Part shown: piece by piece, positions 5,519 to 23,541 of the stretch
Numbering within the stretch: position 1 is the stretch's first letter
How the letters are laid out: the number at the start of each line of letters is the position of its first letter
NCBI RefSeq assembly: GCF_000328305.2
Contig: NZ_ANPE02000106.1
Span: forward strand, 1-34,365
Length of the DNA: 34,365 nt
From: Arthrobacter crystallopoietes BAB-32
Lineage (GTDB): Bacteria; Actinomycetota; Actinomycetes; Actinomycetales; Micrococcaceae
Direction of reading: 5' to 3'
The notes under the pieces: model-generated
Seen by the model: the letters and a program-made list of their open reading frames with translations, nothing else
Databases searched by the model: none
What the model was told of the DNA's origin: nothing
Made by a program: the position numbers and the translations under genes

Positions 5519-6496
5519 ATGATTCAACGTCGAAGCATCCTGAAGACGAAGGCTTCCATGGTGGCGGCAGGAGCCGCTGCCGTGGCGCTTGGCCTGACCG
5601 CTTGCGGCGGGAGCAGCAGTGCGGCGCCTGAGGGTGCCGACGCCACCGCGGAAACAGTCCAGGTCGGCTACTTCCCGCTGGTCCACACTTCCACCGCCGT
5701 GCATGCCGATGAAGCCGGGATCTTCGAGGCGAACGGGCTGGACGTCGAGCTGGTTTCCACCCAGGGCGGCGCCGCAGCCATCCCCGGACTGGTCTCCGGC
5801 AGTGTCGACTTCACCTACACCAACTACACCTCGGCCCTGCTGGCCGCCGAGCAGGGCCTCCCGGTCCGCCTGGTCGCCGGCAACGACGTCGGCAAGGCGG
5901 ACCACGGGATCTTCGTCGCCAAGGATTCGGGCATCGAGAGCATTGCCGACCTGAAGGGCAAGTCCTTCGCAGTGAACAACCTGCAGAACATCGGCACCGT
6001 GGCCATCAACGCCCTGCTCGAGGAGGCAGGCCTGCAGGCTTCCGACGTGAAGCTCGTGGAAATGCCGTACCCGGACATGCAGGCGGCATTGGAGCGCGGC
6101 GACGTGGATGCCATCTGGCAGGTCGAACCCTTCCAAGCCGGCGCGGCAGCCGCCGGGCTCGTCAAGATCGGCGACCTGTTCACCGGCCCGGTTGCGGACA
6201 TGCCGGTTGCCGGCTGGATCACGACCGAGAAGTTCGCCCAGGAGAATCCCGAGGCAGTGGCGGCGTTCAAGGAAGCGCTCGCTGCATCGGCGGAGGAACT
6301 GCAGGGTGACCGGGACCGGCTGGTCGAACTGGTGCCGACGTTCACCAAGGTGGGGGCCGACGTCGTCCAGGCCATCGAGATGCCGCAGTTCCAGGGTGAG
6401 CTGGATGTCGAGGCGCTGCAGAAGACGGCCGACCTGATGTTGAAGTACCAGATCACGGACAGCGAGCTGGACGTCCAGACGCTGGTCGCCGAATAG
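5519..6496 (+). CDS. ABC-type substrate-binding lipoprotein (NrtA/SsuA/TauA-like)
   Basis: This 325-residue exported protein has a lipoprotein signal ending in G-L-T-A-C-G-G, so Cys near residue 29 should be lipidated. The mature part opens with V-Q-V-G-Y-F-P-L and has F-T-Y-T-N-Y-T-S-A-L-L-A-A-E-Q-G, as in the NMT1/THI5-like periplasmic-binding family that carries sulfonates, nitrate, taurine, pyrimidine precursors or aromatic acids. The ATG at 5519 follows AAAGGA; an in-frame ATG at 5480 is less likely. Only 8 bases separate it from the P450, so the two are co-transcribed. No permease or ATPase gene accompanies it, which is unusual. The context suggests that it delivers the P450 substrate, perhaps an aromatic acid, to a transporter encoded elsewhere. 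Confidence 0.88.
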   Translation: MIQRRSILKTKASMVAAGAAAVALGLTACGGSSSAAPEGADATAETVQVGYFPLVHTSTAVHADEAGIFEANGLDVELVSTQGGAAAIPGLVSGSVDFTYTNYTSALLAAEQGLPVRLVAGNDVGKADHGIFVAKDSGIESIADLKGKSFAVNNLQNIGTVAINALLEEAGLQASDVKLVEMPYPDMQAALERGDVDAIWQVEPFQAGAAAAGLVKIGDLFTGPVADMPVAGWITTEKFAQENPEAVAAFKEALAASAEELQGDRDRLVELVPTFTKVGADVVQAIEMPQFQGELDVEALQKTADLMLKYQITDSELDVQTLVAE

Positions 6497-6504
6497 GAGG
6501 AGCC

Positions 6505-7716
6505 ATGACCACCGAGACCTCAGCGCTGAGCGGAGTCGCATCGCTGGAGCTGGACCCCTTCAGCGACAGCTTCCTCACCAACCCCTACCCGGCCCACGAG
6601 GAAATGCGCGAAGCCGGCCCGGTGTTCTGGCTGGAGCGCTACGAGCTGTGGGGTGTCGCCCGGTACAGCGAGGTGACGCAGGTGCTGGTCGACCACGAAA
6701 CGTACGTCTCCTCGCGCGGCGTGGGGATCTCGGACTTCGCCAAGGAGAAGCCGTGGCGGCCGCCGAGCCTGCTGCTGGAAGCCGATCCGCCCCACCACAC
6801 CAAGGCGCGGCACGTCGTCTCGCAGATCCTGACCCCGAAGTTGCTGCGCACGCTCAAGGAAGGGTTCCAGGAGCGCGCCGACGAACTGGTGGCCCGCGTA
6901 GCCGCCCGCGGCGGGGAAATCGACGGCGTGGCCGACTTGGCCGAGGCGTACCCGCTCGAAGTCTTTCCGGACTTCATCGGCCTGCCCAAGGAGGGCCGGG
7001 AGAACCTGCTGCCCTACGGTTCGATGGTCTTCAATACCTTCGGGCCGCGGAACAGCCATTTCGAGCGGGCGATGGAGCGCGGCGCGAAGGCGCAGGGCTG
7101 GATCATGGAACAGTGCCAGCCGGGTGCGCCGGCACGGGACGGCCTGGGCGCGAAAATCCACGCCGCCGCGGCCGAAGCCGGCTATGGCGCCGAGGACCAG
7201 GCGAAGCTGCTCCGGTCCTTCCTGTCGGCAGGCGTGGACACCACCGTGCACGGCATCGGCAACGCTCTGGAGTGCCTGGCCCGGAACCCGGAGCAATTCG
7301 CCGCACTGCGCGAGGACCCGGCGCTGGCCCGTGCCGCCTTCGAAGAGACAGTGCGTTTCTCTTCCCCGGTGCAGACCTTCTTCCGCACCACGAGCAGGGA
7401 CACGGAACTCTCCGGCATGGCCATTCCGGAAGGTTCCAAGGTGCTGATGTTCTTGGCCGCCGCGAACCGCGACCCGCGGCAGTGGGAGCGGCCCGACGAA
7501 TTCGACATCCGCCGCAAGGCCGCCGGACACGTCGGTTTCGGCTTCGGGGTCCACGCCTGCCTGGGGCAGATGCTGGCCCGGTTGGAAGGTGAATGCTTCC
7601 TCAGTGCCCTGGCACGCCACGTGGACACCATCGAGCTGGCCGGCGAACCGGTCCAGCAGCTCAACAACACGCTCCGCGGACTGGACAGCCTGCCCCTGCG
7701 GCTCACCGCCGCCTGA
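6505..7716 (+). CDS. Cytochrome P450, CYP199A-like (para-substituted benzoate monooxygenase)
   Basis: This 403-residue soluble P450 has the I-helix A-G-V-D-T-T (D245, T246), ExxR at E281-R284, and the heme loop F-G-F-G-V-H-A-C-L-G with ligand C352. It closely resembles my memory of CYP199A2/A4 of Rhodopseudomonas palustris, which hydroxylate or O-demethylate para-substituted benzoates such as 4-methoxybenzoate. Shared segments are S-S-R-G-V-G-I-S-D-F, K-P-W-R-P-P-S-L, G-R-E-N-L-L-P-Y and N-N-T-L-R-G-L. The residues that hold the substrate carboxylate in CYP199A4 (Arg92, Ser95, Arg243, Ser244) appear here as R85, S88, R237 and S238. A G-G-A-G SD precedes the ATG. The ferredoxin follows after 18 bases; no ferredoxin reductase is nearby. 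The substrate is inferred, not shown. Confidence 0.93.
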   Translation: MTTETSALSGVASLELDPFSDSFLTNPYPAHEEMREAGPVFWLERYELWGVARYSEVTQVLVDHETYVSSRGVGISDFAKEKPWRPPSLLLEADPPHHTKARHVVSQILTPKLLRTLKEGFQERADELVARVAARGGEIDGVADLAEAYPLEVFPDFIGLPKEGRENLLPYGSMVFNTFGPRNSHFERAMERGAKAQGWIMEQCQPGAPARDGLGAKIHAAAAEAGYGAEDQAKLLRSFLSAGVDTTVHGIGNALECLARNPEQFAALREDPALARAAFEETVRFSSPVQTFFRTTSRDTELSGMAIPEGSKVLMFLAAANRDPRQWERPDEFDIRRKAAGHVGFGFGVHACLGQMLARLEGECFLSALARHVDTIELAGEPVQQLNNTLRGLDSLPLRLTAA

Positions 7717-7734
7717 GCAGGGAAGGACAAGACC

Positions 7735-8049
7735 ATGCCGAAGATTACTTTCGTCCAGCCGGACGGGCTGGAAAACGTCGTCGACGCCGAGGCCGACGTC
7801 AGCGTGATGCGGGCCGCCGTTGCCAGCGGCGTGCCCGGCATCGTCGCCGAATGTGGCGGCAGCGCGATGTGCGCGACCTGCCACGTCTACGTCGACGCGG
7901 GGAACCTGGACGGGCTGCCGGAACTCGGCGACGTAGAGGACGAGATGCTGGATTGCACGGCTGCCGAGCGGCTGGACTGCAGCCGGCTCTCCTGCCAGCT
8001 GCCGGCCACACGGGACCTCACGGTCCGGATTCCGCCCACCCAGGTGTAA
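7735..8049 (+). CDS. [2Fe-2S] ferredoxin, P450 partner
   Basis: This 104-residue ferredoxin is of the adrenodoxin/putidaredoxin type. Cluster ligands C40, C46, C49 and C87 have the spacing C-x5-C-x2-C-x37-C. Two further cysteines, C74 and C82, are not ligands by position. The E-L-G-D-V-E-D-E-M-L acidic helix before the last ligand is the usual docking face for P450 and reductase. It should pass electrons from an NAD(P)H-dependent ferredoxin reductase, encoded elsewhere, to the upstream CYP199A-like enzyme; CYP199A systems are known to use such a cognate ferredoxin. SD GGAAGGA precedes the ATG. It is the last gene of the operon and ends 12 bases from a convergent gene. Confidence 0.93.
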   Translation: MPKITFVQPDGLENVVDAEADVSVMRAAVASGVPGIVAECGGSAMCATCHVYVDAGNLDGLPELGDVEDEMLDCTAAERLDCSRLSCQLPATRDLTVRIPPTQV

Positions 8050-13183: not shown

Positions 13184-13981
13184 CTAGAACGGATTGAGCA
13201 GCCGGTGCACGAACTGGCGCGTCCGTTCCTCGTGGGGATCACGCAGCACCTGGTCGGGGTGGCCGCGCTCAACGACCACGCCACCGTCCATGAAGACGAC
13301 CTCGGAGGCTACCTCGCGGGCGAAGGCCAGCTCGTGGGTGACCATGACCATGGTCCAGCCGTCCTCGGCCAGCTCCTTGATCACGTGCAGGACGTCGCCC
13401 ACCAGCTCGGGGTCCAGGGCCGACGTGGGCTCGTCGAACAGCAGCAGGGCCGGTTTGAGCGCGAGCGCGCGCACAATCCCCACGCGCTGCTGCTGGCCGC
13501 CGGAAAGCTGGTGCGGGTACTGGTCCTTCTTGTCGTGCAGGCCCACCCGGCGCAGCAGATCCTCGGCTTCCCGCACGGCTTCGGCCTTGGGCCGCTTCTG
13601 CACCTGGACCGGCCCCTCGATGATGTTCTCCAGCACCGTCCGGTGCGGGAAGAGGTTGTAGTGCTGGAACACCATGCCGGACTGGTCGCGCAGCGCGGCC
13701 AGCTGCTTGCGGGAAACCCGCTGCCCGAAGTCCACGGCCGGTCCGCCGCGAAAGGCGACCCGTCCGCCGTCGGGAATTTCCAGCCCGTTCAGGCACCGCA
13801 GCACGGTGGTCTTGCCGGAACCGGACGGGCCGATCAGCGCCAGGACCTGGCCCTGGCTGACGGACAGGTCGATGGACTTGAGCACCTGGTTGCTGCCGAA
13901 GGACTTGCGCAGTTCCGCCACGCTGAGGACGGGATTGTCGGCGGCGCCTGATGGGGCCGCGGCCGGATCAGTGGGCGACAT
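13184..13981 (-). CDS. Polar amino-acid ABC transporter, ATP-binding protein
   Basis: This 265-residue ATPase has Walker A G-P-S-G-S-G-K-T-T (about residues 51-59), the Q-loop V-F-Q-H-Y-N-L-F-P, signature L-S-G-G-Q-Q-Q-R, Walker B L-L-L-F-D-E-P and H-loop V-T-H-E. The Q-H-Y-N-L-F-P-H variant and length fit the GlnQ/TcyC amino-acid importer class. It overlaps the permease gene by 14 bases. The matching binding-protein gene lies 4.5 kb upstream on the same strand, beyond three opposite-strand enzyme genes. The substrate is probably a polar or sulfur amino acid or a derivative thereof; sequence alone does not decide. Confidence 0.95.
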   Translation of the reverse strand: MSPTDPAAAPSGAADNPVLSVAELRKSFGSNQVLKSIDLSVSQGQVLALIGPSGSGKTTVLRCLNGLEIPDGGRVAFRGGPAVDFGQRVSRKQLAALRDQSGMVFQHYNLFPHRTVLENIIEGPVQVQKRPKAEAVREAEDLLRRVGLHDKKDQYPHQLSGGQQQRVGIVRALALKPALLLFDEPTSALDPELVGDVLHVIKELAEDGWTMVMVTHELAFAREVASEVVFMDGGVVVERGHPDQVLRDPHEERTRQFVHRLLNPF

Positions 13982-14633
13982 AGCGGTCCAGCCTCCTTTC
14001 CAATCGGGTCTGGCCGGCGGAGAGGACCAGGCAGAACACCCAGTAGACGGCGGCGGCTTCCAGGTAGAGGACCATGAACTCCTGGCTGAACGCCGCGATC
14101 TCCTGCGCCTGCCGGAACAGCTCGGTGACCAGGATCAGCGAGGCCAGCGAGGTGTCCTTCACCAGGGAGATGAAGGAGTTGGACAGCGGCGGCACGGAGA
14201 CCCGTGCGGCCTGCGGCAGGATCACCCGGCGCAGCGTCAGCGCGGGTGACATGCCGATGGTGTGCCCGGCCTCCCACTGGCCCTTGGGCACGGAGAGGAT
14301 GGCGGCCCGGATGATCTCCGCCGCGTACCCGGCGACGTTGAGCGAGAAGGCGATGATGGCGCTCGGCCAGGGATCGATCACCACGCCGATCGAGGGCAGG
14401 CCGAAGAAGATGACGAAGAGCTGCACCAGCAGGGGAGTGCCGCGGATGACCGAGACGTAGGCCCGCGCGATGCCGGCCAAAATGGCGCTGCCGCTCAGCC
14501 GCATCAGCGCCACCACGAGCGCCAGCACGAGCCCGAGGGCGAAGCTGGCCAGGGACAGCGGAATGGTCCCGGTGAGGCCGCCCTGGACGATCGGCCAGAG
14601 CGAGGTCCTGACCAGCTCCCAGTCGACATTCAT
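13968..14633 (-). CDS. Polar amino-acid ABC transporter, permease
   Basis: This 221-residue permease has about five transmembrane helices and the HisM/GlnP-type signature: R-G-T-P-L-L-V-Q-L-F near residue 64 and the E-A-G-H-T-I-G-M-S-P coupling loop that contacts the ATPase. Homodimeric permeases of this length are normal for TcyB/GlnP-type importers, so one permease gene can suffice. The ATG at 14633 has no SD in the preceding CGTAGCCCT, suggesting a leaderless or nearly leaderless transcript. It is divergent from the glutamine-synthetase-like gene across 114 bases, so a shared regulatory region is likely. Confidence 0.93.
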   Translation of the reverse strand: MNVDWELVRTSLWPIVQGGLTGTIPLSLASFALGLVLALVVALMRLSGSAILAGIARAYVSVIRGTPLLVQLFVIFFGLPSIGVVIDPWPSAIIAFSLNVAGYAAEIIRAAILSVPKGQWEAGHTIGMSPALTLRRVILPQAARVSVPPLSNSFISLVKDTSLASLILVTELFRQAQEIAAFSQEFMVLYLEAAAVYWVFCLVLSAGQTRLERRLDRYVAH

Positions 14634-14747
14634 AGGGCTACGCTAGTACAGCATCCGAAGGCAGAGGGCCAGGGCCTTCCCGTTGCTGGCCGGAAGTGGT
14701 TGAATCAGCGCATCGCGCGCATTGCGGATCCAGCCGAGGGGGACCGG
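14634..14747. promoter_or_regulatory. Divergent promoter region, permease / glutamine-synthetase-like gene
   Basis: These 114 bases must serve both directions. On the reverse strand TACTAG (14655-14650) could be a -10 for a leaderless permease mRNA; its -35 is poor. A small inverted repeat GAAGGC/GCCTTC lies at 14658-14684. A GAGGGGGA ribosome site precedes the plus-strand ATG. No regulator gene is adjacent. Confidence 0.35.
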
Positions 14748-16055
14748 ATGGCTGAACAGGAACTGGCTTTCCTCGCCACCAATGACCTCTGCGCGATCAC
14801 CCGCGGCCGGGCGATGCCGCTGGCCCAGCTCGATCCCGCCACCGGCTGCGGCTGGGTGCCGGCCAACCTCGGCGTGGGCGCCTTCGGCACCATCGTGGAG
14901 GGCAGCCCGTTCGATGCCACCGGCGACCTGCGGCTGATTCCGGACCAGCGCTCCACGGCCCGCATCGATGGCATCCCGGGCCGGCCGCCGCTGACCGTGA
15001 TGCTGGCGGACATTACCCATAACGACGGCGGCGAGTGGGAGTGCTGTCCGCGCACCTTCCTGCGGCATGCCATCCGCGATCTCGAGCAGGAGGCCGGGCT
15101 GCAGGTCTTGGGCGCCTTCGAGCACGAGTTCATGCTGGCCTCCGCCGGTCCGCCCGAGCCGCCGATGTCGCTGCAGGCCATGCTCCGGGCCGAACCGCTG
15201 GGCACCGAACTGGTGGGGATTCTTGCCAACGCCGGGCTGCAGCCGGAAAACTGGCTGGCCGAGTACGGCGCCCACCAGTGCGAGATCACCATTGCTGCCA
15301 CTGACGCCCTGACCGCGGCCGACCGGGCCGTCCTGCTGCGCGATATCGTGCGGAACCTGGCCCATGCGCACGGACAGCGCGCCACCTTTGCGCCGCTGCT
15401 GGAGCCGGAAGCCGTGGGCAACGGCGTGCACGTGCACTTCAGCCTGCGGGACAGCTCCGGGCGGCCGGTGACCTACGACGGCGCGCGTCCCGGCCGGCTC
15501 TCGGCCGCGGCCGGTGCTTTCGCGGCGGGGATTGTCCGGCATGCACCGGCGCTGCTGGCGTTCACGGCGGCGAGCGAAGTGTCCTACCTGCGGCTGGCCC
15601 CGCACCGCTGGTCCGCCACCCATGCCTTCCTTGGCCGGCACAACCGCGAGTCCATGCTCCGGCTCTGCCCGACCATCGACCTGGCCGGACGGGAGCCGGC
15701 CGGCCAGCTGAACCTGGAGTTCCGCGCGGGCGATGCCACCGGCAACCCGTGGCTCGTCATGGGGCTGCTCATCCGCGCCGGACTGGAAGGTATCCGGACG
15801 AAGCTGGAGGCCCCTGCCCTGATCGAGGGCCCGATCGAAGAGGTGGGCGAGGAGGAGCAGCGCCGCGCCGGCATCATCAGGCTCCCCGGCACGCTCACCG
15901 ATGCGCTCGCCGCCCTCGAGGCGGACCGCGTGGTTTCCGGCTGGTTCGCGCCGGACCTGCTCACCGTCTACCGGGCCCTCAAACGGGACGAACTGCGGCG
16001 GCTGGCAGAGCTTGACGATGCCGCCAAATGCCTCAGGTACGCCGATGTCTACTGA
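14748..16055 (+). CDS. Glutamine-synthetase-family ligase (gamma-glutamyl-amide type)
   Basis: This 435-residue protein is a GS-fold ATP-dependent ligase. Metal and glutamate-site elements are present: E125-H-E127, the A-E-Y-G-A-H-Q-C-E-I block with E179, N-G-V-H-V-H-F near residue 225-231, R300, and L-N-L-E-F-R at 321-326. It is shorter and divergent from GlnA (about 470 residues), and lacks the adenylylation-loop tyrosine context. Such paralogues (PuuA, IpuC, the GS half of FluG) join glutamate to amines rather than ammonia. A FluG-type amidohydrolase follows with 11-base overlap, recreating as two genes the two-domain FluG/nodulin-GS fusion. I infer gamma-glutamylation of an imported or related amine; the substrate is unknown. 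ATG 14748 is behind GAGGGGGA. Confidence 0.88.
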   Translation: MAEQELAFLATNDLCAITRGRAMPLAQLDPATGCGWVPANLGVGAFGTIVEGSPFDATGDLRLIPDQRSTARIDGIPGRPPLTVMLADITHNDGGEWECCPRTFLRHAIRDLEQEAGLQVLGAFEHEFMLASAGPPEPPMSLQAMLRAEPLGTELVGILANAGLQPENWLAEYGAHQCEITIAATDALTAADRAVLLRDIVRNLAHAHGQRATFAPLLEPEAVGNGVHVHFSLRDSSGRPVTYDGARPGRLSAAAGAFAAGIVRHAPALLAFTAASEVSYLRLAPHRWSATHAFLGRHNRESMLRLCPTIDLAGREPAGQLNLEFRAGDATGNPWLVMGLLIRAGLEGIRTKLEAPALIEGPIEEVGEEEQRRAGIIRLPGTLTDALAALEADRVVSGWFAPDLLTVYRALKRDELRRLAELDDAAKCLRYADVY

Positions 16056-17205
16056 AACAGGCAGGCTGCCGGAGGCCGGATCGGTGATGGCGGGGATGGC
16101 GCTGACGGACCACCACTGCCACGGAATCACGGTGGAGCCGCTGGACCGCGCCGGATTCGAGGCGCTGCTCACCGAGTCCGAATGGCCGGCCCCGCCGGGC
16201 ACCAGCATGTTCGACAGCCAGCTGGGTTTTGCGGTCCGCCGCTGGTGCGCGCCGCTGCTGGACCTGGAACCGCACGCAGCACCGGAGGAATACCTGGCGC
16301 GCCGGCAGGAACTCGGCCCCGACGCCGTGAACCGGCGGCTGCTGGGCGCGGCCGGGATCGGCACCTTCCTGGTGGACACCGGCTACCGCGCCCCGGAACT
16401 GACGTCCCCGCGGGAGCTCGCGGACCTGGCCGGCGGCGTGGCCAGGGAGATTATCCGGCTGGAACACCTGGCGGAACAGGTCGCGGCGAACGGAACCACG
16501 CCGCCGTCGTTCGCCGCGGACTTTGCCGAGACGCTGGCCGGTGCGGCCCGGGACGCCGCCGGGCTCAAGTCCGTGGCGGCCTACCGGTTCGGACTCGGCT
16601 TCGACCCCTCGCCGCCGACCGCACGCGAGGTGGAGCTGGCGGCCGCCCGGTGGCTGGGGCGGGAAGCCGACGGTTCCGTGCCGCGGCTGGAGGACCCGGT
16701 CCTGCTGCGCCACCTGCTCTGGACCGGCGTTCAGCTCGGCAAGCCGATCCAGTTCCACACCGGCTATGGGGACGCCGACCTCGATCTGGCCCGCTGCAAT
16801 CCGCTGCTGCTGACCGGCTGGCTGCGGGCCACGCGCGAAACGGGGGTGCCGGTGATGCTGCTGCACTGCTATCCCTACCACCGCGAGGCCGGCTACCTGG
16901 CGCAGGTGTTTCCGCACGTCTACGCCGACGTCGGCCTGGCGGTCAACCATACCGGCAGCCGCTCCGCCGCGGTGATCGCCGAGTCCCTGGAACTGACGCC
17001 TTTCCACAAGGCGCTGTTCTCCACGGACACCATCGGCCTGCCCGAGCTGTACTACCTCGGCGCGCTGCTGTTCCGCCGCGGTTTCGGCCGCGCCGCGGCC
17101 CAGTGGATTGACGACGGCGAGTGGTCGCCGCGGGACGCGGAACGGGCGGCGGAACTCATCGGGTACCGCAACGCGGCCCGCGTCTATGGACTGGAGCTGA
17201 CATGA
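16045..17205 (+). CDS. FluG-type amidohydrolase (amidohydrolase-2 family)
   Basis: This 386-residue TIM-barrel metallohydrolase has the N-terminal metal motif D-H-H-C-H-G (about residues 22-27), a mid-barrel Q-F-H-T-G-Y-G-D-A-D, L-L-H-C-Y-P-Y near residue 272, and F-S-T-D-T near residue 332, as in the amidohydrolase half of eukaryotic FluG and nodulin-like GS proteins. It should hydrolyse an amide or related bond. ATG 16045 overlaps the GS-like stop by 11 bases; a second ATG at 16087 gives a start closer to the metal motif. It ends in an ATGA overlap with the M20 gene, so the three are translated together. Substrate unknown, but pairing with the ligase suggests that it cuts a gamma-glutamyl or acyl-amide intermediate. 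Confidence 0.88.
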   Translation: MSTETGRLPEAGSVMAGMALTDHHCHGITVEPLDRAGFEALLTESEWPAPPGTSMFDSQLGFAVRRWCAPLLDLEPHAAPEEYLARRQELGPDAVNRRLLGAAGIGTFLVDTGYRAPELTSPRELADLAGGVAREIIRLEHLAEQVAANGTTPPSFAADFAETLAGAARDAAGLKSVAAYRFGLGFDPSPPTAREVELAAARWLGREADGSVPRLEDPVLLRHLLWTGVQLGKPIQFHTGYGDADLDLARCNPLLLTGWLRATRETGVPVMLLHCYPYHREAGYLAQVFPHVYADVGLAVNHTGSRSAAVIAESLELTPFHKALFSTDTIGLPELYYLGALLFRRGFGRAAAQWIDDGEWSPRDAERAAELIGYRNAARVYGLELT

Positions 17206-18407
17206 TGCCCTCGGCGCACACCCTGTTCGAAGCGCTCAACACGGCGCTCGACGGCGAACTGGACGCCGCCGTCGCCCTTCGCCACAGCCTCCACCAGTAC
17301 CCTTGCCTGTCCGGCAAAGAGGGGCCGGCCGCTTCCACCCTGGCCTCGGCGCTGGGCCTGCCAGTCCATAAGGTGGCGGGGACCGGCTTCCTGGCCCGCA
17401 CCGGGCCGGACGACGTCCCGGCCATCGGCATCCGCGCGGAACTCGACGCGCTGCCCATGTACGAGAGCACCGGCGTCGAATGGGCCGCGGAGAACGGAGT
17501 CATGCACGCCTGCGGCCACGACGTTCACCAGGCCGCCATGGTCGCCTTCATGCGGGCCGCCGGCCGGATCAGGCTGCCGGCTGCCGTGGTGGCCATCGCG
17601 CAGCCGCGCGAGGAATGCCATCCCTCGGGTGCCCGCGACATCGTGGACGAAGGCGGACTGGAAGCCGCCGGGATCGGGGCGGTGCTGGCGGTCCATGTCC
17701 ACCACTCGCTGCCGGCCGGCTCGGTCAGCATAGTTTCCGGGGCGGTCAACGCCGCCTATGACGAGTTCACCGTTACTGTCCATGGCCACGGCGGGCACGG
17801 CGCCTACCCGCATCTGGCGGTGGACCCGGTGCCCATCGCCGCGCGGATTACCCTCGCGCTCTACGACCTCGTCCGGAACAGCGTCAGCCCGGTCGAGGCG
17901 GCCACGCTGACGGTCGGACTGCTGTCTGCGGGCTCCGCCGCCAACGTCATCCCGGACACGGCGGTGCTGCGCGGCACGCTGCGGAGCATGACCGCGGCGG
18001 ACCAGGACCGGTTGCACAAGGGGCTGCGGGAGATTGCCGAGCACCTGGCCATGGCGTTTGGCGCGCGGGCGGTGGTGGGCATCGACCGCGGTGATCCGGT
18101 GCTGGAGAACGATGCCGGCATCGCGCTGCACTCCGCCGAGTGGGTCGAGCGGGCGGGGCTGCCGCTGGCCGAACCGCTGCGCAGCTGCGGTTCGGACGAC
18201 TTCGCCTTCTTCACGCAGCGGGTGCCCGGCCTCATGGCGTTCCTCGGCGTGGACGGCCATGAAGCGACCAGCCCCGCGGACCACCCGCGGGCCCTGCACT
18301 CGAGTTCCTTCCTGCCGGCGGACTCGGCTGTGGAGCACACGGCCCGCGCCCTGGCCGGGATGTATGTCGGGACGGCGGTCAGGCTCGGTCTCGCCGACGA
18401 CAGCTGA
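17202..18407 (+). CDS. M20-family amidohydrolase (amino-acid amide / N-acyl amino acid type)
   Basis: This 401-residue protein belongs to peptidase family M20D. Metal residues lie in I-R-A-E-L-D-A-L-P-M and H-A-C-G-H-D-V-H, with Q-P-R-E-E, the A-V-H-V-H-H block and the late G-S-D-D-F-A-F-F. The central dimerisation domain (G-H-G-G-H-G-A-Y-P-H) is intact. Relatives remove acyl groups from amino acids or cleave indole-acetyl-amino-acid conjugates. It starts at ATG 17202 or 17205, overlapping the previous stop, behind GGAG. It is the last of three coupled genes and converges on the binding-protein gene 24 bases away. With the ABC importer it suggests uptake and stepwise deacylation of an amino-acid conjugate. 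Confidence 0.92.
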   Translation: MMPSAHTLFEALNTALDGELDAAVALRHSLHQYPCLSGKEGPAASTLASALGLPVHKVAGTGFLARTGPDDVPAIGIRAELDALPMYESTGVEWAAENGVMHACGHDVHQAAMVAFMRAAGRIRLPAAVVAIAQPREECHPSGARDIVDEGGLEAAGIGAVLAVHVHHSLPAGSVSIVSGAVNAAYDEFTVTVHGHGGHGAYPHLAVDPVPIAARITLALYDLVRNSVSPVEAATLTVGLLSAGSAANVIPDTAVLRGTLRSMTAADQDRLHKGLREIAEHLAMAFGARAVVGIDRGDPVLENDAGIALHSAEWVERAGLPLAEPLRSCGSDDFAFFTQRVPGLMAFLGVDGHEATSPADHPRALHSSSFLPADSAVEHTARALAGMYVGTAVRLGLADDS

Positions 18408-18431
18408 GCAGCGCAAGGGCCGCCCGCGCAG

Positions 18432-19256
18432 CTACTGGCTGACGTCCTCGCCGAAGTACTTCTCCGAGAGCCTGGCCAATGTGCCGTCGGCGCGCAGTTC
18501 GTCGAGCGCCTTGTTGGCGGCCTCGACGAGGTCCGTGCTGCCCTTCGGGAAGGCCAGCCCGACTTCGGACTGGTCCTCGGTCTCGGCCGCAATCTTGATG
18601 TTCTGGTTGTTGTTGTCCTTCTGGTAGTCCAGATAGGTCAGCTTGTCGTTGATGGTTGCGTCCACGCGGCCCTGCTCCAGCAAGGAGACGGACTGGGCCC
18701 AGCCTTCGACGGCTTCGACGTCGGCGCCGGACTCCTGTGCCAAGGCGTACCAATTGCTGGTGAGCGACTGGGCCGTGGTCTTGCCCTCCAAGTCCGCAAA
18801 GGAGGTGATCTCGTTATTGTCCGCGGTGGTCACCAGCACGCCGTTGCTGACCGTGTACGGATCGGAGAAGTCGTACTTGGCCAGGCGCTCGTCGTTGATG
18901 GTCACCTGGTTGGCGATCACGTCGAAACGGCCGGCCTCCAGGCCCGCGAAGATCGCATCCCACTGCGTTTCCTCGAACTGCGCCTCGACGCCGAGCTTGT
19001 CCGCCACGGCCCGCATGACTTCGACGTCGTAGCCGGTCAGCTCACCGGCTCCGTCCTGGTGGAACGAGAAGGGGCGGTAGGTGCCCTCGGTGCCGACGGT
19101 GATGACACCCTCGTCCTGGATCTGCTGCAGCGTCACCGGCGCTGCGCTGGCGGTGCCGTCCGGGCCGTCTTGTGCAGGTCCGGAACCGCCGCAGCCAGCC
19201 GCGGCAAGGGTGATGGCAGCAGCTGCTCCGAGCAGGGAAAGACGGCGACGGTTCAT
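18432..19256 (-). CDS. Polar amino-acid ABC transporter, substrate-binding lipoprotein
   Basis: This 274-residue exported protein has an R-R-R signal peptide and lipobox A-A-A-G-C, then a family-3 binding fold: G-V-I-T-V-G-T-E-G-T-Y-R-P-F-S-F, G-Y-D-V-E-V-M-R-A-V-A, and F-D-V-I-A-N-Q-V-T-I. The N-Q-V-T-I-N-D-E-R segment and the Y-D-F-S-D-P-Y stretch look like the cystine binder TcyA, but this is a weak basis for naming. The matching permease and ATPase lie on the same strand beyond the three plus-strand enzyme genes. ATG 19256 follows AAAAGGA. A 12-bp hairpin sits in its leader. Confidence 0.93.
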   Translation of the reverse strand: MNRRRLSLLGAAAAITLAAAGCGGSGPAQDGPDGTASAAPVTLQQIQDEGVITVGTEGTYRPFSFHQDGAGELTGYDVEVMRAVADKLGVEAQFEETQWDAIFAGLEAGRFDVIANQVTINDERLAKYDFSDPYTVSNGVLVTTADNNEITSFADLEGKTTAQSLTSNWYALAQESGADVEAVEGWAQSVSLLEQGRVDATINDKLTYLDYQKDNNNQNIKIAAETEDQSEVGLAFPKGSTDLVEAANKALDELRADGTLARLSEKYFGEDVSQ

Positions 19257-20040: not shown

Positions 20041-22419
20041 CTAGAGCCCGGCCAGATCAGCCGCCGCGCGTACGATCGAATCTACGTCGATCCCGTGGAT
20101 CCGGTAGGCATCCTCGACGCTGGAGGATTGGCCGAACTCCGTCACGCCGAGGTTGCGGATCCTATCGCCGCGGACACCGGCCAGGAAGGACAGCGTATGC
20201 GGGTGCCCGTCCATGACGGTTACGAGCGGGGCAGGCTCGGCGGCCGGGAAGAGCGCTTCGACGATGGCGGTCCGCTGGCTGCCTCCCGTCTTATGGCGTT
20301 CCTGCAGCGAGCGGAAGACCAGGTCCGGGCTGGTGAGGCAAACGACGCCGGCATGCACCCCGAGTGCCTCCAGCCGCCGCGCAGCCTCCAGCACCTCCGG
20401 CATAATGGCACCGACGCCGACCAGGGTGACCTGCTCGCTGCCGGGCGCGTGGCGGATGATCCGGTAACCGCCGGCGACGGCATGTTCGCGCCGCCGCTCC
20501 AGCAGTGCCGGGTCCTCCGGAAGCCGGGCCAGCGACTGCTCGACGGGCCGGGTGGACAGCCGGAAGTAAGCGGACGTTCCGCCGGGGCGGCCGATGAGGT
20601 TCATCGCCGCGAGCATGCACCACTCCAGGTCCTGCGCGAAGGCCGGTTCCCAGGCAATGCAGCCCGGCTGTTCCAGGCCGATCGACGGCGTGTTGATGGA
20701 TTGGTGTGCGCCGCCCTCAGGCGCGAGGGTCACGCCGGAGGGGGTGCCGACCAGGATCGATTGGCCGCCGGCGTAGATACCGTAGGACCACGGCTCCAAG
20801 GCGCGGTTGACGAACGGATCGTACAGCGTGGCGATGGGGATCAGCGGCTGGCCCCAGCGGCTCCAGGTGGCACCGAGTTCGCCGGCAAGGCAAACGAGGT
20901 TGACCTCGGCAATGCCCAACTCAATGTGCTGGCCGTGGGCACCCTCAGTCCACTTCAGCAGGCGGTCGGCATCATCGGCGAACCAGTCGCGGCGCTCGCC
21001 GGGGGACCAGACGCCGGTCTTGTTGATCCAGCCGCCGAGGTTGGTGGAGGACGCCACATCCGGACTGAGCGTCACGACGCGCTCGGCTGCTTCGGGCACG
21101 CCTCGGGCCAGGTCGGAGAGGAAGCGGCCAAGAGCGGCCTGCGTGGAGCCTATGGCTTTGTAGGACCACGGGAGTTCGGCCGGAAGTTCCGGGATGCGGC
21201 CTTCACCGACGGCAGGGCGGGCCAGCCGCTCTGCCGCCACCCGGCAGGCTGCCTCCTCGGCCGTCCCGGCGGCGAACCGCTGCCAGGGGTTGGCCAGGTC
21301 CATGCCGGAGAGCTGTGCGAGCTCCTGCATCTGCGCTTCGTTCAGCTGGGCAGCGTGGTTGTTCGGATGGCCCTCGGTGGCCAGGCCGCGGCCCTTGACC
21401 GTGTAGGCGAAGAGGACCGTCGGACGCGTCGGATCGACTTGGCGGTAGGTTTCCAGCAGCAGCCCGATATCGTGGCCGCCCAGGTCGCGGATGGCAACGC
21501 CAAGCTCACGGGGCGTGAGCGGGTCAACCAAGGCTGCGAGCCTCGGATCCGGCGCACTGCCGAGCAGCCGTTCGTGCAGCTGCCCGGGGTCGCTGCGCAG
21601 CAGCCGCTGGTATTCCTCGTTCGGCATGTCCTCGAGCCGGGCGCGCAGCAGGTCCCCGCCCTCGGCCGCGAAGAGCTGCTTGATCCCGCGGCCCCACTTG
21701 CAGGTGAGCACCTGCCAGTCGGCCGCGGCGAACATACCCTGCAGACGTTGGATCTGGACGTCGGGGATCACCCGGTCCAGCGATTGGCGGTTCAGGTCGA
21801 CGATCCAGAGCAGTTCTCCGAGCTGGCGGACACCCGGGTCCGTCACTGCTTCCCAGACCGCACCCTCGTCCAGCTCCGCGTCGCCGAGCAGGCTGATGAA
21901 ACGTCCGCCCTTGGGCGTTTCCGGAAACTGGTCGCGCAGGTAGCGGTGCGACATGGCCGCCCAGATAGGTGCCGTGGCGCCGATGCCGACGCTGCCGGTG
22001 GAGAAGTCCACGGTGTCCGGGTCCTTGAGCCGGCTGGGGTAGCTTTGCAGCCCGCCTTTTTCGCGCAGCCGGCCCAGATAGGACTCGTCCAGTTCGCCGA
22101 GCAGGTAGTTGATCGAGTGCAGCACCGGCGAGGCATGCGGCTTGACCGAAACCCGGTCCTCCGCGGTGAGTTCGGCAAACCAGAGCGACGTCATGATCCC
22201 GGCCATCGAGGCGCTGGAGGCCTGGTGCCCGCCGGCCTTGACGCCGGAGGAGTTCGGCCGGCCGCGGTTGGCCGCGTCGATCATGGCGGTGGAGAGCCAG
22301 AGGACACGCTGCGCGATCGAATCCAGGACGCTGCCGTCCAGCGTCGCCGCCGCGGAAAGCGGCCGACCATTGACGGACGGAGAACTCTCGGCTGCCTGGT
22401 AAACGGTATCGGTGGTCAT
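20041..22419 (-). CDS. 2-oxoacid dehydrogenase E1 of AceE/MdeB type (thiamine-diphosphate enzyme)
   Basis: This 792-residue protein has the homodimeric E1/transketolase architecture: an N-terminal ThDP domain with G-G-H-Q-A-S at 63-68, K-P-H-A-S-P at 93-98 and a ThDP-binding G-D-A-E at 179-182 with N210, then a Pyr domain with the catalytic-Glu region H-I-E-L-G-I-A-E, then a C-terminal domain. It would decarboxylate a 2-oxoacid and pass the acyl group to an E2; no E2 or E3 gene is nearby. It is about 100 residues shorter than actinobacterial AceE. It directly follows ACC deaminase, which releases 2-oxobutyrate. Pseudomonas MdeB, an AceE homologue, oxidises 2-oxobutyrate beside methionine gamma-lyase. 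A 2-oxobutyrate role is therefore inferred. GGAAGGGA precedes ATG 22419. Confidence 0.85.
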   Translation of the reverse strand: MTTDTVYQAAESSPSVNGRPLSAAATLDGSVLDSIAQRVLWLSTAMIDAANRGRPNSSGVKAGGHQASSASMAGIMTSLWFAELTAEDRVSVKPHASPVLHSINYLLGELDESYLGRLREKGGLQSYPSRLKDPDTVDFSTGSVGIGATAPIWAAMSHRYLRDQFPETPKGGRFISLLGDAELDEGAVWEAVTDPGVRQLGELLWIVDLNRQSLDRVIPDVQIQRLQGMFAAADWQVLTCKWGRGIKQLFAAEGGDLLRARLEDMPNEEYQRLLRSDPGQLHERLLGSAPDPRLAALVDPLTPRELGVAIRDLGGHDIGLLLETYRQVDPTRPTVLFAYTVKGRGLATEGHPNNHAAQLNEAQMQELAQLSGMDLANPWQRFAAGTAEEAACRVAAERLARPAVGEGRIPELPAELPWSYKAIGSTQAALGRFLSDLARGVPEAAERVVTLSPDVASSTNLGGWINKTGVWSPGERRDWFADDADRLLKWTEGAHGQHIELGIAEVNLVCLAGELGATWSRWGQPLIPIATLYDPFVNRALEPWSYGIYAGGQSILVGTPSGVTLAPEGGAHQSINTPSIGLEQPGCIAWEPAFAQDLEWCMLAAMNLIGRPGGTSAYFRLSTRPVEQSLARLPEDPALLERRREHAVAGGYRIIRHAPGSEQVTLVGVGAIMPEVLEAARRLEALGVHAGVVCLTSPDLVFRSLQERHKTGGSQRTAIVEALFPAAEPAPLVTVMDGHPHTLSFLAGVRGDRIRNLGVTEFGQSSSVEDAYRIHGIDVDSIVRAAADLAGL

Positions 22420-22454
22420 TGCGGTCCCTTCCGGTCAGAGGTTTTGGCAGGGGT

Positions 22455-22515
22455 ACGACGGCGGAGCGCGACCTGTGTGGGGCCAGCTGCCCAAGGTGCG
22501 CCCCGCCGTCGTTAT
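22455..22515 (-). repeat. Stem-loop between acdS and the E1 gene (ACGACGGCGG family)
   Basis: On the reverse strand ACGACGGCGGGGCGC (22512-22498) pairs over 15 positions, with one G-U wobble, with GCGCTCCGCCGTCGT (22469-22455). The 28-base loop can form an inner GGGC/GCCC helix. There is no T-run. The left arm with its flank, 22498-22515, is identical to 18 bases at the pheA end. It lies between two co-directional genes and could protect or cleave the message so that acdS and E1 differ in level. Confidence 0.65.
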
Positions 22516-22518
22516 GGC

Positions 22519-23541
22519 CTAGGAGCGGAACAGTCCGCTGTAGGCGTTGATGGCCGGCTGCCCGCCCAGATGGGCGTACAGCACGTTGCTGTCGGCCGGG
22601 ATCTCCTTGCTGCTGACCAGGTCGATCAGGCCGGCCAGGGACTTGCCCTCGTAGACCGGGTCGGTGATCATCGCTTCCAGCGAGGCGCCCAGGCGCATGG
22701 CGGCGAGGGTGGACTCCACCGGGATGCCGTAGAGGTCGCCGGCCCAGCCTTCCAAGACAGTGATTTCGTCTTCGCGCAGGTCGCGCTCGAGGCCGATCAG
22801 CTTGGCCGTGTTCCGCGCGATCCGGCTGACCTGCTCGCGGGTCTTGTCCAGCGTGGCGGAGGCGTCAATGCCGATGATGCGGCGGGGCCGGCCACCCTCG
22901 TCTTCGAGGGCGGCGAAGCCGGCGATCATGCCGGCATGGGTCGAGCCGGTCACGGTGCAGACCACGATGGTGTCGAAGAAGACGCCCAGGTCCTGCTCCT
23001 GCTGCCTGACCTCGTAGGCCCAGTTGGCGAAGCCGAGGCCGCCGTACTTGTGCTCCGACCCGCCGGCCGGAATGGCGTAGGGCTTGCCGCCCGCCGCCTC
23101 GACCTCGGCGATGGCGTCCTTCCAGGAGTCGCGGATGCCGATATCGAAGCCGGCGGGGTCCAGCCGGACATCGGCCCCCATCAGGCGGGAGAGCAGGATG
23201 TTGCCGACGCGGTCGTTCAACGGATCCGGCCAGTCGACCCAGTTCTCCTGCACCAGACGGGCCTTCAGGCCGAGCTTCGCCGCCACCGCCGCGACCTGGC
23301 GGGTGTGGTTGGACTGGAAGCCGCCGATCGAGACAATCGTGTCCGCGCCCTCGGCCAGGATGTCCGGCACGATGTACTCCAGCTTGCGGGTCTTGTTGCC
23401 GCCGAAGGCCAGTCCGGAGTTCACGTCCTCCCGCTTGGCCCAGAGCTGCGCGCCGCCCAGGTGCTGCGAAAGCCGGGGCAGATGGTGGATGGGGCTGGGC
23501 CCGAAGGTAAGGGGGTACCGCTCGAAATCAGTGATGGCCAT
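22519..23541 (-). CDS. acdS: 1-aminocyclopropane-1-carboxylate deaminase
   Basis: This 340-residue PLP enzyme opens the ACC ring to give ammonia and 2-oxobutyrate. PLP lysine K50 lies in G-G-N-K-T-R-K, with S77 (Q-S-N-H-T-R-Q). The residues that separate true ACC deaminase from D-cysteine desulfhydrase are both of the deaminase type: E298 in V-Y-E-G-K-S and L325 in A-H-L-G-G (Glu295 and Leu322 of the Pseudomonas ACP enzyme). Y271 and Y297 complete the site. The ACC precursor of ethylene is made by plants, so the gene suggests rhizosphere or plant association. ATG 23541 follows AGGACC; the open frame continues upstream but overlaps the regulator. It is divergent from gntR-like, with a perfect palindrome between them. 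Confidence 0.95.

Follow-up and report, generated by a model that had tools for sequence, protein, structure and literature searches.

In Arthrobacter crystallopoietes BAB-32, the genes for the binding protein, permease and ATPase of an amino-acid ATP-binding cassette (ABC) importer lie on one strand and are interrupted by three coupled genes on the other. These encode a glutamine synthetase (GS)-like ligase, a FluG-type amidohydrolase (AH) and an M20-family amidohydrolase. The locus raises the question whether importer and enzymes belong to one uptake pathway, and which reactions the enzymes carry out. It was analyzed in a window of 34,365 nucleotides, which denotes the whole stretch of DNA under analysis (assembly GCF_000328305.2, contig NZ_ANPE02000106.1, positions 1 to 34,365). 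The three enzyme genes were found to be inserted between the binding protein and the permease gene in one lineage of an Arthrobacter-like genus. We favor the reading that a small catabolic or detoxifying 'split FluG' module, serving glutamylation-dependent amine use, was inserted into an older importer operon, and its chances appear to be about even. The locus comprises the following features:

13184-13981, minus strand: ABC ATPase, amino-acid (cystine-type) family; ABC_tran 128.7 bits, best NCBIfam model TcyN (325.9 bits, cut-off 406)
13968-14633, minus strand: ABC permease, amino-acid (cystine-type) family; BPD_transp_1 97.7 bits, TIGR01726 102 bits (cut-off 42.2), best model cystine permease (263.8 bits, cut-off 300)
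14634-14747, no strand: divergent region between permease and GS-like genes, 114 bp; aligned blocks conserved in five species of the genus, one of them without the GS start
14748-16055, plus strand: GS-like gamma-glutamyl-amine ligase, PA5508 type (type A), 435 aa; Gln-synt_C 233.1 bits, 4HPP 333 bits
16045-17205, plus strand: FluG-type binuclear metal amidohydrolase (AH), 386 aa; Amidohydro_2 47.8 bits, PDB relative 2QPX
17202-18407, plus strand: M20-family amidohydrolase/deacylase, 401 aa; Peptidase_M20 81 bits, TIGR01891 (M20D amidohydrolases) 242.1 bits, above the curated cut-off of 153.75
18432-19256, minus strand: solute-binding lipoprotein of the same ABC importer, 274 aa; SBP_bac_3 153.6 bits, best PDB match the amino-acid binding protein 2YLN (243 bits)
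14650-18431, no strand: approximate inserted segment at the ancestral junction of binding protein and permease, from empty-site comparison with relatives

The original prediction had described importer parts on one strand and three coupled genes on the other, and all six genes were confirmed at these positions. On sequence comparison, the family assignment of all six is clear. The N-terminus of the binding protein is lipoprotein-like, as judged by eye. On the plus strand, the GS-like and AH genes overlap by 11 nt and the AH and M20 genes by 4 nt, and because of these overlaps the three genes are very probably translated as one operon. The M20 and binding protein genes are convergent and 24 bp apart. 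A promoter and terminator scan returned no sites, and no sigma-70-type match was found in the 114-bp divergent region. Arthrobacter hankyongi (genome G009, locus L015) has all six genes with order and strands unchanged, at 66-83% identity and with one additional gene of 98 aa, so the arrangement is not a chance layout.

The ligase and the FluG-type amidohydrolase

The closest PDB structure to the GS-like protein was 4HPP (PA5508 of Pseudomonas aeruginosa; 333 bits, runner-up 122 bits), a full-length match in which 188 of 428 aligned residues are identical. The catalytic residues of true GS, 4HPP and FluG are tabulated in PMC6478659. Mapped through the alignment, all 12 catalytic positions are as in 4HPP, as are the metal, ATP and glutamate positions (10/10). 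Where true GS has an Asp and a Glu for handling ammonia, this protein has Val37 and Trp288, and an identity as true glutamine synthetase was therefore rejected. Among GS homologues with aligned rows longer than 330 aa, the Trp was kept in 22/22 sequences of the window's own type (type A) and in 46/46 of a more distant type (type B), and the Val in 21 of the 22 type-A sequences (one gap). The other three GS homologues of the window genome carry Glu (two) or Phe (one) at the Trp288 position. Since the catalytic residues are those of 4HPP and Val37 and Trp288 stand in place of Asp and Glu, the enzyme is expected to be a gamma-glutamyl-amine ligase of the PA5508 type, which would join glutamate to an organic amine and not to ammonia. 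Ligases of this type are rare and were found in three of 395 other genomes drawn from the phylum (E 1e-70, up to four candidates per genome being scored).

For the AH, a single-sequence search of the PDB identified 2QPX from Lactobacillus (149 bits) and one chance-level second match, and a profile search identified 2QPX only (220 bits). The metal-site residues of 2QPX (HxH, Lys, His, His, Asp) correspond by eye to H24, H26, K175, H238, H274 and D328 of AH, and a Tyr to Y180; these seven residues are invariant in 38 aligned sequences. The predicted model has a predicted local distance difference test (pLDDT) value of 92.5. In a fold search it reached a template-modelling (TM) score of 0.82 to 2QPX, followed by the uncharacterized amidohydrolase 4I6V (0.63-0.65) and uronate isomerases (about 0.6). 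AH homologues were found at E 0.001 in 10 of 148 related genomes including the own genome, weak or truncated ones among them. The neighbor Rv1879 of Mycobacterium tuberculosis glnA3 is presumably such an amidohydrolase as well; expression measurements for it are given in two papers on Rv1878 and Rv1877.

Fungal FluG unites both activities. According to the results given in PMC6478659, the genes of the 2QPX enzyme and PA5508 served as substitutes for the AH and ligase halves of FluG, and the activity of the 2QPX enzyme is described there as unknown. AH matches 2QPX and the GS-like protein matches 4HPP, i.e. the stand-ins for the two halves, and the predicted 'split FluG' character of the pair is thus borne out.

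It was also considered that AH could be an O2-activating amidohydrolase-related oxygenase of the AibH2/SfbO kind, acting on the glutamylated amine. AibH1H2 structures occur among the fold-search matches, and in the aniline and naphthylamine pathways, as presented in PMC11335346, the glutamylated amine is oxidized next. However, the TM score to AibH1H2 is 0.36-0.37 compared to 0.82 for 2QPX, and the three His and three carboxylates reported for AibH2/SfbO (PMC10811679) differ from the four His, Lys and Asp of AH. Furthermore, no Rieske gene was seen among the labelled neighbors, although no profile search was aimed at such genes. On fold and ligand set the oxygenase was rejected, and we regard it as extremely unlikely.

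Recurrence of the module

The neighborhood of AH was surveyed by tblastn (E 1e-12) with one genome per species. The census covers the best 80 of 548 AH relatives, i.e. the nearest family, all from Actinobacteria according to the record titles, in stretches of up to 10 kb; ABC matches below 45% identity were dropped. It includes three AH genes missed by the gene caller (L058, L081, L084); the genes of L018 were set by hand.

A GS gene was found within 6 kb of AH at 68 of the 80 loci, 20 of type A and 48 of type B, and 57 of 71 GS matches lie no more than 1.5 kb from AH. Other neighbors within 6 kb were M20 (27/80), an APC permease (22/80), an RpiR regulator (19/80) and a class III aminotransferase (14/80); the 27 include the M20 match at L065 (32% identity, other strand), probably a chance neighbor. 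Beyond 6 kb there was no match to GS, M20, RpiR or aminotransferase, and three of 25 APC matches. For the 62 loci with 6 kb available on both sides, GS was near in 51, M20 in 22 and APC in 19. The original prediction had called the adjacency of GS-like and FluG-type genes meaningful, with which these numbers agree: GS plus AH is a recurrent bacterial 'split FluG'.

The organization of the pairs is compact. Where GS and AH are immediate neighbors on one strand, GS comes first in 43 of 49 cases. With start codons chosen by script, the spacing of GS and AH falls in the range of -13 to +7 nt for 32 of 43 junctions; AH and M20 overlap at 21 of their 26 junctions, by 4 nt in 15 cases. No GS-AH fusion was found: the window has two overlapping genes, and the longest AH or GS gene called in 86 stretches is 546 aa. 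M20 is associated with type-A GS (17/20 loci) compared to type B (6/48; Fisher p 1.8e-8) and is absent within 6 kb at 45 of the 68 AH-GS loci. A complete ABC importer was found beside AH at one of the 80 loci, that of A. hankyongi, and in the window. The five-gene set proposed earlier is therefore conserved in part: the enzymes recur together, but the importer does not belong to the set and M20 is separable from GS-AH.

Outside Actinobacteria, GS directly precedes AH on five Deinococcus plasmids and one Allomeiothermus plasmid. By the annotation of the records, a haloarchaeal plasmid carries AH, APC, class III aminotransferase, M20 and GS within 15 kb, and a second one AH, an amino acid permease, M20 and two GS genes; gene names on the plasmids are those of the records, and their M20 and aminotransferase genes are putative orthologues. 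One further plasmid match was without annotation. Some GS-AH pairs on the Allomeiothermus and Deinococcus plasmids lie near other hydrolases (L149, L151, L156, L157), which may reveal the chemistry. The 98-aa protein of A. hankyongi is encoded between M20 and the binding protein (L015 11516-11812). It had no Pfam or NCBIfam match at E 1e-5 and was not found at the other 79 loci of the census.

The aminotransferase and APC permease in homologous modules would also suit a catabolism of polyamines or diamines of the Puu kind with different hydrolases. In Brevibacterium celere and Gulosibacter sediminis (L080, L097) the module's aminotransferase has an Orn/Lys/Arg decarboxylase as a neighbor, in differing gene orders, which is a hint only, and the best NCBIfam model for the ligase is gamma-glutamylputrescine synthetase, though at 235.6 bits compared to the cut-off of 650. 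On the other hand, the decarboxylase is limited to these two of the 80 loci, and PA5508, the nearest characterized ligase, is reported in PMC6478659 to prefer bulky amines over polyamines. The oxidase, aldehyde dehydrogenase and PuuD-type hydrolase of a Puu-type pathway are not among the six genes. The PF07722 (PuuD-type) genes of the genome are on other contigs, two of them within 2.5 kb of a separate GS homologue on contig C262. Because of this separate GS homologue near PF07722 genes, an immediate assignment to a polyamine pathway was rejected. A polyamine route is quite unlikely.

Insertion into an older importer operon

The importer was assigned to the polar amino-acid ABC importers, with a binding protein of solute-binding protein family 3 and a HEQRo-type permease. 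The NCBIfam equivalog cut-offs for a cystine importer (FliY-YecSC/TcyLN) were missed by the binding protein (210.4 compared to 312 bits) as well as by the permease and ATPase (values listed above). A close homologue of the binding protein was detected at E 1e-40 in every one of the 10 genus genomes and, over the whole search including the own genome, in 39 of 99. The layout could be read at 30 loci from these 39 genomes. Binding protein, permease and ATPase are contiguous on one strand at 25 of them, including 20/20 outside the genus, and split at five, all in the genus, which corresponds to 5/10 genus genomes. In four genomes (G002, G007, G017, G059) a contiguous importer occurs together with an AH homologue elsewhere in the genome.

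The empty site, with the permease directly after the binding protein, was seen in longer stretches of G005, G006 and G039, and empty and filled sites resemble each other over about 16 bp upstream of the permease start. Two of the five split importers contain all three enzyme genes (window and G009), two contain M20 only, and one contains eroded pieces and a transposase. Since the insertion site is identical and the inserts can be aligned, a single insertion event is likely; the ABC gene tree left the order of split and contiguous groups open.

The decay of the insert can be followed in the syntenic sisters of the window, G003 and G008, in which M20 alone lies between permease and binding protein. 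In G003 the intergenic DNA aligns to two segments of the window. The first, 14575-14832, takes in 85 nt from the 5' end of the ligase gene; the second, 17155-17332, covers the final 51 nt of AH and runs into M20. The junction is a deletion scar, at which most of ligase gene and AH were removed together. For G008 the aligned segments are 14549-14734 and 17223-17348. Ligase and AH were lost as a unit, since in G003 the GS start joins the AH end in place of both genes. Within G001, the split importer encloses eroded ligase and M20 pieces and a transposase-like gene. In G002 the importer is contiguous and a ligase-AH pair is encoded at another site, where G007 carries a truncated one.

The transposase-like gene of G001 is a pair of reading frames, IS630-like by eye, at L136 9677-10738 among the ligase and M20 remnants.

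An explanation in which the importer has a part is a dedicated uptake pathway: the importer would bring in an N-acyl or amide conjugate, M20 would deacylate it, the ligase would glutamylate the product, and the insertion would have made one regulon. This would suit the six-gene layout that the window and A. hankyongi share, the shared divergent region conserved in five species and the M20 gene still beside the importer in two species without GS-AH. In addition, no close homologue of the module's APC permease exists elsewhere in the window genome, the best match having 27% identity and 47 bits. However, 25/30 loci have a contiguous importer uninterrupted by enzyme genes, in G002 the importer and GS-AH are at different places, and a complete importer accompanies AH at a single census locus. 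A dedicated uptake pathway is thus unlikely. The importer as ancestral partner of the enzymes was rejected, because it is widespread and mostly contiguous without enzymes between its parts. It is older than the enzyme insertion and most likely a general amino-acid (cystine-like) importer, not a dedicated part of the module. The original prediction of one set of importer and enzymes, and of joint uptake, is not supported by these counts; its gamma-glutamylation part is retained, as the ligase lacks the ammonia residues of true GS.

The M20 amidohydrolase

The top PDB match of the M20 protein was YxeP. An intact M20, 82-83% identical, is kept without GS-AH in the two sister species G003 and G008. 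Compared between these two, its 401 codons are intact with a ratio of nonsynonymous to synonymous substitution rates (dN/dS) of 0.073 at a synonymous rate (dS) of 0.32, which indicates purifying selection. M20 therefore has a use without ligase and AH. As an obligate partner of GS-AH it was rejected, since it is kept alone in two species and is rare in type-B loci. In the M20 tree, the AH-linked M20s are separated from four of the five M20 paralogues of the window genome, which group with the M20 of L065, by a branch with support of 100/99. The fifth paralogue has a very long branch and no placement.

Proposed function

The arrangement of the genes, their families, the catalytic residues, the co-occurrence and the insertion and decay history were observed directly. 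We infer from them the metabolic direction, the bond cut by AH and the role of M20. The GS-like enzyme would catalyze the ATP-driven joining of the glutamate gamma-carboxyl group to an amine other than ammonia. Its partner would be AH, a translationally coupled binuclear metal hydrolase that would most likely cut the gamma-glutamyl amide or the processed conjugate. M20 would act as a separable deacylase on N-acyl conjugates, releasing amines or amino acids. In other lineages, an APC permease often belongs to the module itself. Modules with APC permease and aminotransferase look catabolic, judging from their gene content. The deacylase role of M20 seems evenly balanced, and the assignment of AH as hydrolase of a ligase-hydrolase pair, which is made by analogy, comes somewhat below that.

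Such pairs have precedents in gamma-glutamylation. PuuA acts with PuuD as ligase and hydrolase. Other examples are AtdA1/AtdA2 of aniline degradation, as described in PMC11335346, and, for ethanolamine utilization, GlnA4 together with a predicted hydrolase of gamma-glutamylglycine (PMC6529630). In these systems the role proposed for AH is filled by unrelated hydrolases, namely PuuD, AtdA2 and the predicted SCO1615.

Several observations weigh against the preferred reading. None of the three enzyme genes encodes an amine oxidase or a dehydrogenase, so that a full Puu-like route is incomplete here. GS was not seen at 12 of the 80 AH loci, some of them on short contigs. The GS-AH pair of Allomeiothermus adjoins a gene of the N-formylglutamate amidohydrolase family, whose proposed function in the GlnA4 pathway is the cleavage of gamma-glutamyl bonds (PMC6529630), and an acetamidase/formamidase is near GS-AH on three of the five Deinococcus plasmids. 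If these Deinococcota neighbor hydrolases carry out the deprotection, AH does something else. Furthermore, the Aspergillus ligase half alone supports development (PMC6478659), and by our analysis the fungal data are at least as compatible with an AH reaction that precedes the ligase.

In the latter case AH would open a cyclic amide or an N-acyl amine, and the freed amine would be glutamylated for storage, detoxification or as a signal, as may happen in FluG; the pathway would then be biosynthetic or protective. The metal site of AH is of hydrolase type, and as reported for A. nidulans in PMC6478659, the ligase half is necessary and sufficient, with the AH half only improving conidiation. However, the recurrent neighbors (permeases, aminotransferase, deacylase) look catabolic and GS precedes AH in the gene order given above. 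This order of reactions has a small chance.

We therefore retain the glutamylation of an amine before AH acts as the preferred reading. In a broader form, FluG-type AH would be a new class of gamma-glutamyl-amide hydrolases, paired with PA5508-type ligases in bacteria, a haloarchaeon and, in fused form, fungi; the bacterial operon would be a soluble two-protein FluG, and M20 would mark a conjugated nutrient. This generalization is doubtful at present.

Other genes in the window

A second difference in gene content between the window and G003/G008 was noted at 20041-23541 (minus strand), where a pyruvate-dehydrogenase-E1/transketolase-like gene and a 1-aminocyclopropane-1-carboxylate deaminase gene (TIGR01274, 537.7 bits, cut-off 392) are located. 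The genes flanking this pair are direct neighbors in G003 and G008, corresponding to a gain in the window or a loss in these two. At 5558-8049 (plus strand), genes for an SsuA-like binding protein, a cytochrome P450 and a small ferredoxin-like protein (by eye) lie in a row.

Comparison with known systems

PA5508 (4HPP), a ligase of bulky monoamines from P. aeruginosa, matches the GS-like protein over its full length and agrees with it at 12/12 catalytic positions, whereas the ligase gene of the window is coupled to AH and M20. The yxe operon of Bacillus subtilis has the M20 enzyme YxeP beside an amino-acid ABC importer and is not known to contain a ligase or AH; in the window the importer genes are split and M20 lies between them, on the other strand. 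A literature search for a YxeP/cystine parallel yielded no useful result. The series of insertion and decay within one genus is a caution that an ABC importer merely surrounding an operon is a poor guide to its function.

The GlnA4 cluster of Streptomyces is similar to the window in its gamma-glutamylating GS-like enzyme, a permease in several species and a predicted gamma-glutamyl hydrolase. It differs in having two predicted dehydrogenases and an N-formylglutamate-type hydrolase, as described in PMC6529630, whereas the window has a FluG-type AH, M20 and no dehydrogenase. AtdA1-AtdA2 and NpaA1-NpaA2 for aniline and 1-naphthylamine (PMC11335346) consist of a ligase and a gamma-glutamyl amide hydrolase, as proposed here. 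Their hydrolase is described as glutamine amidotransferase (GAT)-like and the next enzyme as a Rieske dioxygenase, neither of which is among the genes of the window. In literature searches no published description of the exact set was found, in line with the original prediction. The arrangement is a variant within the gamma-glutamylation modules, which are already a known kind.

FluG of Aspergillus nidulans has the same two parts, a 2QPX-type amidohydrolase and a 4HPP-type ligase, and its metabolic or signalling pathway is given as unidentified in PMC6478659. It is a single chain with the AH part N-terminal, whereas the window encodes two proteins with the ligase gene first, plus M20. In the bacterial operon the FluG enzymes are two proteins from coupled genes, and they occur with a deacylase and, among relatives, with a permease and an aminotransferase, which points to amine conjugates. 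It thereby offers a tractable and simple bacterial test system for FluG-type chemistry.

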